Positions 43,291 to 44,538 of a stretch of DNA of 58,464 bases are shown one piece after another. This DNA is from Bacillus sp. (in: firmicutes) (GTDB taxonomy: Bacteria; Bacillota; Clostridia; Lachnospirales; Lachnospiraceae): the NCBI GenBank assembly GCA_023666125.1, contig JAMPCN010000006.1, positions 1 through 58,464 of the forward strand, read 5' to 3'. The notes below the pieces were generated by a model, which had not been told where the DNA came from, made no database searches, and was given only the letters and a program-made list of their open reading frames with translations. The position numbers and the translations under genes are program-made. Each line of letters starts with the position of its first letter. Position 1 is the first letter of the stretch.

Positions 43291-43308
43291 AATCTGCACA
43301 GGCAGATT
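43291..43308 (+). other. Perfect 7-bp hairpin between the LamG-like gene and the sigma-28-type promoter
   Basis: AATCTGC, loop ACAG, GCAGATT. It is followed by A-rich, not T-rich, sequence on the + strand, so it does not look like a forward terminator. It ends at the -35 of the downstream promoter. Confidence 0.5.
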
Positions 43309-43334
43309 AAGGAAAAAATAAAAACGGTCGATAT
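43308..43334 (+). promoter_or_regulatory. Sigma-28-type promoter of the EF-hand-like gene
   Basis: TAAG (43308-43311), exactly 15 bases, GTCGATAT (43327-43334). The consensus TAAA-N15-GCCGATAT is missed at one base in each element. The transcript should begin near 43341. Confidence 0.6.
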
Positions 43335-43340
43335 ATAAGT

Positions 43341-43470
43341 TACAAGGGATGGCTGCTTCTGGCCAGACGGTCATTCCTTGAATTTATAAATCTTGACCAC
43401 GGATGGTATTTTTGGGAAAAGGAATTTCCCCTGAAAATGCCATTTTTTTGTGGCAAAAAAGGAGGTATCA
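43341..43470 (+). ncRNA. Structured 5' leader with competing hairpins (candidate riboswitch/attenuator)
   Basis: The first stem is CAAGGGATGGC (43343-43353) with GTCATTCCTTG (43370-43380), 11 pairs including two G-T. An alternative pairing is GGTCA (43369-43373) with TGACC (43394-43398), which would break the first stem. The ATGGC of the first stem can also pair with GCCAT in the terminator arm (43439-43443) and so act as antiterminator. The leader ends in the terminator described next. I do not recognise a known aptamer, including c-di-GMP-I. Confidence 0.5.
43403..43449 (+). terminator. Strong intrinsic terminator inside the leader
   Basis: ATGGTATTTT (43403-43412) pairs with AAAATGCCAT (43434-43443, one G-T). 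The inner stem GGGAAA (43414-43419) pairs with TTTCCC (43425-43430). Seven T follow (43443-43449). Only 11 bases separate it from the ribosome site GGAGG at 43461, so no promoter fits between them and the downstream gene must be transcribed through it. Confidence 0.8.
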
Positions 43471-44538
43471 TTGCGAATTAGTTCCAGTATGATAGGAATG
43501 GAATCCGCCAGAAGTTATTCTTCTGTAACAGTGAGAACTGCCCGTACTTATGCGGGCAGGCCCAAGAGCATGACAACCGGGGGAGGAAATGGATTTCTGG
43601 GAAGCTTTTGGGGAATGGAAGGGGAGGCAGAGGATGCCGATAAAAGTAGTAATGCGCAGACTACTTTACAGGATGTTTCACTCCACTTCCGCAATCTGTC
43701 CAATACGGGCAGGGTAACAGCCAGCAGGGAGGAAAAGGACGCCAGGGAGACAGTCAGGCAGCAGTGCATGAAATTTTTGATGTATCTTTTGTTTGGCGAC
43801 CGCCATAAGAGGGAGCTGGACGAGTTCTGGGGAACCGGAACGGACTCTTCACAAACCCTGAGCGATACGCAGTCCTACGGCATTACGAATACGTATTACC
43901 ATAGCGAGACGGAAACAACTTCTTTTGCTACAACCGGAGTAGTAAAGACTGCCGACGGCAGGGAAATTAATTTCGGTCTCAATCTGGAAATGAGCAGGAG
44001 TTTCACGGAGTATTACGAAGAAAGTTATGATATCGGGCAGCTGCACTATACAGACCCGCTTGTCATTAACTTAGACAGTAATATTGCAGAACTTTCTGAC
44101 CAGACTTTTTTCTTTGATTTGGATTGTGACGGAACGAAAGAGGAAATATCCACTTTAGGTTCCGGCAGCGGCTATCTGGCGCTGGATTTGAATCAGGATG
44201 GCGTCATTAACGACGGCAGCGAGCTGTTCGGTACGAAATCCGGCAATGGGTTTGCCGATTTAGCGAAGTATGATGCGGACGGCAACGGCTGGATTGATGA
44301 GGGTGATGACATCTGGGATAAGCTTTTGGTCTGGACAAAAGATGAAGACGGCAACGATAAGCTTTATCATTTGTCGGAGGCAGGCGTGGGCGCTATCTGT
44401 TTACAGAATGCCCGGACGGAATTTGCCGTTAATTCCATGAAAGATAATCACACGAACGGAGTCATCAGAAATACCGGTATTTTCTTATATGAAAACGGCG
44501 GTGTGGGTACGGTGCAGCATTTGGATTTGGTACGCTAA
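43471..44538 (+). CDS. EF-hand-like calcium-binding protein of unknown function
   Basis: A 355-residue protein starting at TTG 43471: a perfect AAGGAGGT lies five bases upstream, whereas the longer frame from GTG 43450 would begin inside the terminator. The peptide begins MRISSSMIGMESARSYSS, has no signal peptide, and is predicted soluble. In the C-terminal half two calcium-loop-like segments occur, LDLNQDGVINDGSELFG (about residue 237) and YDADGNGWIDEGDDIW (about 268), followed by WTKDEDGNDKLY. These match the DxDxDG pattern of EF-hand/dockerin-like loops. A sigma-28-type promoter links it to motility genes, but its function is unknown. Confidence 0.75.
   Translation: MRISSSMIGMESARSYSSVTVRTARTYAGRPKSMTTGGGNGFLGSFWGMEGEAEDADKSSNAQTTLQDVSLHFRNLSNTGRVTASREEKDARETVRQQCMKFLMYLLFGDRHKRELDEFWGTGTDSSQTLSDTQSYGITNTYYHSETETTSFATTGVVKTADGREINFGLNLEMSRSFTEYYEESYDIGQLHYTDPLVINLDSNIAELSDQTFFFDLDCDGTKEEISTLGSGSGYLALDLNQDGVINDGSELFGTKSGNGFADLAKYDADGNGWIDEGDDIWDKLLVWTKDEDGNDKLYHLSEAGVGAICLQNARTEFAVNSMKDNHTNGVIRNTGIFLYENGGVGTVQHLDLVR

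Follow-up and report, generated by a model that had tools for sequence, protein, structure and literature searches.

The gene at positions 43471..44538 (+ strand) of the 58,464-nucleotide Lachnospiraceae DNA stretch analyzed here (contig JAMPCN010000006.1; the window) is preceded by a structured leader whose constant parts are ANGGAN loops carried on unrelated stems. Sequence comparison indicates that CsrA probably binds this 5′ leader and thereby links a sigma-28-type (flagellar late) gene to the FliW-CsrA-flagellin circuit.

The gene encodes a 355-residue protein for which no match was obtained in Pfam or NCBIfam. Its C-terminal half matched the self-processing module of FrpC (PDB 6sjw, E = 2.2e-11; PDB 6sjx, E = 7.2e-11). 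This module is Ca2+-dependent and cleaves an Asp-Pro bond. The alignment with FrpC starts at the cleaved Asp-Pro, which all 12 aligned homologues retain, and the C-terminal half of the protein resembles, and is a candidate for, a Ca2+-dependent self-processing module. The predicted structure of the protein was of low confidence (mean pLDDT 38.5). Clear homologues were present on six named contigs, each from a metagenome assembly, the nearest from a Clostridium sp. (99% identity) and others of 52-79% identity from a Ruminococcus sp., two Lachnospiraceae, a Butyrivibrio sp. and Clostridiales.

A sigma-28-type promoter was read in the sequence at 43308..43334 (+ strand), where TAAG (43308-43311) is separated by a 15-nt spacer from GTCGATAT (43327-43334), exactly as described in the first-pass annotation of this DNA. 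The arrangement corresponds to the TAAA-N15-CCGATAT type of sigma-28 consensus (PMC3720852), with TAAG and GTCGATAT as the version present in the window, and from its position the RNA 5′ end would be expected near 43341. A Shine-Dalgarno sequence, AAGGAGG (43459..43465, + strand), was read ahead of a TTG start codon at 43471. The promoter assignment is reinforced by homologous genes in other genera. With a profile of the protein, 77 of 299 family genomes (76 genera) proved to carry homologues; of 93 places listed outside the genus, 68 were examined, six of which were dropped for want of a well-scoring start codon. CGATA occurred within 330 nt upstream of 61 of the 62 usable genes, compared with 13.6 in shuffled sequences, and these 61 leaders, to which a few genomes contribute two, form the set used below for other genera. 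TAA[AGT] or TTAA preceded CGATA in 49 of the 61, a count made without a shuffle control.

The 135-nt leader folds with a predicted energy of −45.6 kcal/mol, against −31.3 ± 3.4 kcal/mol for 200 shuffled sequences, none of which was as stable (z = −4.2). Both elements picked out previously, a stem spanning 43343-43380 and a hairpin with seven T residues behind it (43443-43449), belong to its minimum-free-energy structure. The former, hairpin P1 (43343..43380, + strand), is identified by this fold and by compensatory pairs in alignment A2. Its loop contains a GGCC (43361-43364) that was retained in 56 of 56 leaders from the genus, and neither a pairing partner nor a reason for this P1-loop GGCC was found. 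A GGCC was also seen upstream of the S2 element (see below) in nine of 30 S2-bearing leaders elsewhere, where 1.9 would be expected from mononucleotide shuffling. The latter, P3, is an intrinsic-terminator hairpin with its T run (43401..43449, + strand), assigned from the fold. Folded alone, it gave −19.1 kcal/mol and is followed by the tail TTTTTTT; it was absent from the list returned by a simple terminator scan. The spacing between T run and Shine-Dalgarno sequence is short, as had been stated, although 9 to 10 bases were counted rather than 11. The attenuation originally suggested for this terminator-containing leader is a real possibility.

For a comparison of genus leaders, 62 loci were tried, 57 of which had an upstream region (L005, L052, L057, L076 and L077 did not); L074, from another genus, was left out, and the remaining 56 leaders, 55 of them distinct, were compared. 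Of 98 relatives searched, 60 of them from the genus, 58 had the downstream protein and 43 a match to the leader DNA. When a covariance model was built from 49 genus leaders, 75 of the 77 genomes of the genus each gave one matching place, and the five second matches were weak and lay on the opposite strand at the same place. Conservation of the leader is borne out by this distribution and by compensatory changes in P1 (alignment A2) and in a further hairpin, P4. A second leader-like DNA match in genome G040 lay, by eye, inside a coding sequence and was taken as chance. Outside the genus the model gave 25 matches; among the 17 loci examined (L131-L146 and L148), the nine best matches lay upstream of homologues of the gene, and the other eight had no gene homologue in the stretch looked at. 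Fifteen of the 56 genus leaders are arranged like that of the window, and 41 have an extra 3′ domain in which P4 lies between the terminator and the Shine-Dalgarno sequence. By eye, L071 and L072 (genomes G003 and G025) carry insertions of ∼70 nt between terminator and P4 with a further CACAGGGAATA-like GGA site, and in L069 (genome G002) more than 100 nt of inserted DNA, containing inverted repeats, separate the leader from the Shine-Dalgarno sequence.

The recognition element known for CsrA is an ANGGAN loop, including six-nucleotide loops closed by AC and GU (PMC7652899). Two such hexaloop hairpins were found in the window up to the terminator. S2 (ACC-ACGGAT-GGT, 43396..43407, + strand) has a loop of the form ANGGAY with CC/GG closing pairs in 55 of 55 distinct genus leaders, 52 of which also form the third pair. 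The A and the GGA are fixed, and all four nucleotides occur at N. A search pattern, GGA[TC]GGT[AG] (a fallback in G002), served to locate the base of P3, and those letters thus record presence rather than an open test; the A, N and CC that precede GGA lay outside the locating pattern. S3 (GGGAA-AAGGAA-TTTCC, 43414..43429, + strand) is a CsrA-type hairpin at the tip of P3 in 55 of 56 genus leaders, its GGA being lost in one genome (G043). The S3 stem is A/T-rich, with 276 of 330 cells paired across the genus compared with 267 and 247 when the strands were slid by one; because it barely surpasses the slid versions, support for S3 comes from other genera. In the window, 20 nt separate the GGA motifs of S2 and S3; the 56 genus leaders have a median of 22 (range 15-34). 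A CsrA dimer can bridge sites 10-63 nt apart, and does so best above 18 nt (PMC7652899), and the 10-63 nt range covers the spacing in the window and in the genus leaders. The Shine-Dalgarno sequence also fits ANGGAN; no hairpin was seen around it in the window, but it lies inside a hairpin loop in several relatives from other genera.

Hairpin P4 has a 6-bp stem and an ANGGAN loop in 40 of 40 distinct leaders that possess it, although P4 was located by a pattern that itself contains A-N-GGA. Pairing was seen in 230 of 240 cells of its stem, with slid versions reaching no more than 141, and both sides had changed at five of the six pairs (36 distinct sequences). These paired changes bear on the idea that a translated upstream open reading frame controls the terminator by leader-peptide attenuation. 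ATG frames of at least eight codons occur in 53 of the 56 leaders, counted without a shuffle control. That P1 and P4 change as base pairs, and that length changes break the frame through the 3′ domain (CTATTTGCC in 5 of 56), speaks against such a peptide, and leader-peptide control is highly improbable.

Two features of the terminator were noted in P4-bearing leaders. Their T tail is weaker (T-tract score 3.58 versus 4.66; background 2.04), and their terminator helix has a single clear variable position in the 5′ arm, whereas the 3′ arm swaps G-U and A-U partners at several. A near-invariant 5′ arm opposite a variable 3′ arm is what would be expected if the 5′ arm were also read as sequence.

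The ANGGAN element extends beyond the genus, into far-diverged leaders ahead of the homologous genes. Between CGATA box and start codon, an ANGGAN hexaloop closed by at least 3 bp was found in 45 of the 61 leaders from other genera, compared with 3.2 ± 1.9 in shuffled sequences (maximum nine in 100), and one closed by at least 5 bp in 22 of 61, compared with 0.6; by the strict test, 16 of the 61 had no such hairpin. The stems have different sequences from one leader to the next. Four control motifs gave 1, 1, 2 and 4 of 61; a fifth, AGNGAN, coincides with ANGGAN in AGGGA and exceeded its shuffles (12 of 61 against 2.9). The form of S2 written as CCANGGANGG occurs in 30 of the 61 leaders, a set that the pattern CCANGGANGG itself selects, whereas neither CCANGGANGG nor the covariance model entered into the selection behind the count of 45. 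Of the 30, 22 have a GGA that opens the 5′ arm of an intrinsic-terminator-like hairpin, and 22 (counted with no shuffle control) have a second ANGGAN 8-45 nt downstream. In several leaders from other genera, only 38 to 80 nt separate the box from the start codon, and a single ANGGAN hairpin is retained with the Shine-Dalgarno sequence in some of these short forms.

A caveat to such counts is that GGA is common to CsrA sites and ribosome sites. The GGA loops could be ribosome standby or Shine-Dalgarno-like elements, with hairpins that merely stabilize the mRNA, and AAGGA is indeed Shine-Dalgarno-like. However, N varies at S2 and P4 while the A and the GGA stay constant, loops such as ACGGAC and ATGGAC would make poor Shine-Dalgarno sequences, and four of the five control motifs were not enriched. 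A standby role is on these grounds very unlikely, and binding by CsrA remains the preferred reading of the loops.

The proteins that the CsrA reading calls for are encoded in the same genomes. The window's own genome has both csrA and fliW, adjoining on contig C119; across the genus, csrA was found in 74 and fliW in 73 of 77 genomes. In the family, 74 of the 77 genomes that encode the protein have csrA, versus 80 of the 222 that lack it, a co-occurrence that may only reflect motility. Genome G109 (95% complete) counts against the CsrA reading, having an intact leader, no match to fliW and only a diverged match to csrA. Additional diverged csrA matches were noted near flagellin genes on G000:C94, on G040:C46 and in other genus genomes, with at most four csrA matches per genome. 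Flagellin is a classical CsrA target. Among 28 usable flagellin loci of 30 in the genus (the last 150 nt being used where CGATA was not found), 23 leaders carry an ANGGAN hexaloop hairpin within ∼50 nt of the start codon, a likeness to the leader described here, and three permuted motifs gave none. Only half of the genus flagellin leaders had a CGATA box within 300 nt.

These observations bear on the proposal, also made in the first-pass annotation, that the leader is a ligand-responsive riboswitch in which a stem GGTCA/TGACC competes with P1. The pairing exists in the window but is not conserved, occurring in only four of the 56 leaders of the genus; a 5-bp complement of any kind between the two strands was found in 29 of 56, no more than after strands were swapped between genomes (31.1 ± 2.4). 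A search of the window against Rfam gave nothing at gathering score and, when taken to E = 10, three matches far below gathering scores (E = 3.1 to 5.1), in line with the original remark that the leader does not look like c-di-GMP-I/II, T-box, fluoride, SAM or preQ1 leaders. This lack of a match, a structured and conserved leader with its terminator close to the Shine-Dalgarno sequence, and a P1-loop GGCC that is constant for no known reason would all suit a small-molecule riboswitch of a new class in control of the terminator. Yet besides the sparse competing stem, the constant parts are the ANGGAN element of CsrA, and csrA and fliW are present in the genomes; moreover, some short homologous leaders outside the genus (38 to 80 nt), with one ANGGAN hairpin and the Shine-Dalgarno sequence, leave little room for a ligand pocket. 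The leader is thus probably not a new small-molecule riboswitch, and control of the terminator by one is very unlikely.

A different long-range pairing, P2, joins TTG-A-CCAC (43393..43400, + strand) to GTGGCAA (43450..43456, + strand), which ends two nucleotides before the Shine-Dalgarno sequence. It is present in the fold and was assessed by the duplex energies of own and swapped strands. The strands of 55 genus leaders (G002 left out) paired at −10.8 kcal/mol compared with −8.5 kcal/mol after swapping (0 of 5000 permutations), and those of 27 leaders from other genera at −7.7 compared with −5.7 kcal/mol (0 of 10,000). When each genus leader was offered the strand of its nearest relative (G002 and G015 left out), its own was better in 33 cases, equal in 5 and worse in 16 (p = 0.018), so that this swap gives moderate support for P2 within the genus. 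The window's own strands did worse than the relative's (−2.3 versus −3.9 kcal/mol) in a test that omits the AC used by its P2. As P2 and S2 share the ACC strand, they are mutually exclusive, and formation of S2 likewise rules out pairing at the terminator base. For the window, S2 with S3 amounts to −12.2 kcal/mol compared with −23.4 kcal/mol for P2 with P3, a cost of 11.2 kcal/mol for S2; CsrA could therefore stop termination only if bound before the 3′ arm is made.

P2 also helps to weigh the possibility that termination yields a small RNA, driven by sigma-28, that sequesters CsrA in the manner of CsrB, the gene being read by leakage. Several ANGGAN sites, a terminator here and in 22 of the 30 leaders with S2 from other genera, and the further GGA site in the insertions of G003 and G025 would fit a sponge of this kind. 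P2, however, joins sequence on either side of the terminator and is sensible only in a read-through mRNA; the sites are few compared with the 22 GGA motifs of CsrB (PMC7652899), and many homologous leaders have no such terminator (31 of 61 are without the S2 form). A sponge as the leader's role is unlikely.

Under the preferred reading of a CsrA-bound mRNA leader, a CsrA dimer would bridge two GGA sites. CsrA on S3 and the Shine-Dalgarno sequence would presumably block translation while unexported flagellin holds FliW, and FliW may later lift the block, as for hag; this core function would be common to the simpler leaders that precede the gene elsewhere with a single hairpin loop and the Shine-Dalgarno sequence. 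Part of the 5′ arm of the terminator also belongs to S2, so CsrA and the terminator should compete, and where S2 lies in the terminator, CsrA on the nascent RNA might also compete with termination, in either direction. The outcome could be antitermination, termination unaffected by CsrA, or a sponge RNA. A tentative model drawn from the sequence, which we hold to be possible rather than probable, is a CsrA-controlled intrinsic attenuator in which a dimer bridging S2 and S3 (∼22 nt) on nascent RNA would keep the 5′ arm of the terminator open, and the FliW-flagellin export checkpoint would switch read-through into the sigma-28 gene.

The hag gene of Bacillus subtilis is under sigma-D control. 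It encodes flagellin, and its leader is controlled by CsrA and FliW (PMC6529632, PMC7652899). The present leader resembles that of hag in belonging to a probable flagellar gene, in having putative CsrA sites, to which the Shine-Dalgarno sequence may add one, and in the presence of csrA and fliW in the genome. It differs in serving another gene, in the location of S2 within an intrinsic terminator, in helix P2 and in P4, found in 41 of 56 genus leaders. CsrA sites are coupled to termination in Escherichia coli, where CsrA acts on the pgaA leader to promote Rho-dependent termination (PMC7652899, PMC6582626), and in Legionella, where it opposes Rho in the gap operon (PMC7858274). Both resemble the present leader in the coupling proposed for it, but both are Rho-dependent, whereas the terminator here is intrinsic. 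The proposed competition between an RNA-binding protein and a hairpin switch resembles that in the trp leader of B. subtilis. That leader is a protein-controlled attenuator governed by TRAP, and the present one differs from it in protein family, in recognition element and perhaps in sign.

Among open-licence papers, we recognized no work on CsrA at an intrinsic terminator or on the FrpC-like gene, and the cases of CsrA-linked termination met in the literature are Rho-dependent (PMC7652899, PMC6582626, PMC7858274). The sites are short, and point mutations in them lead to clear predictions. If the attenuator model is true, CsrA would act as an antiterminator at an intrinsic terminator, in an arrangement kept in many genera of the family.
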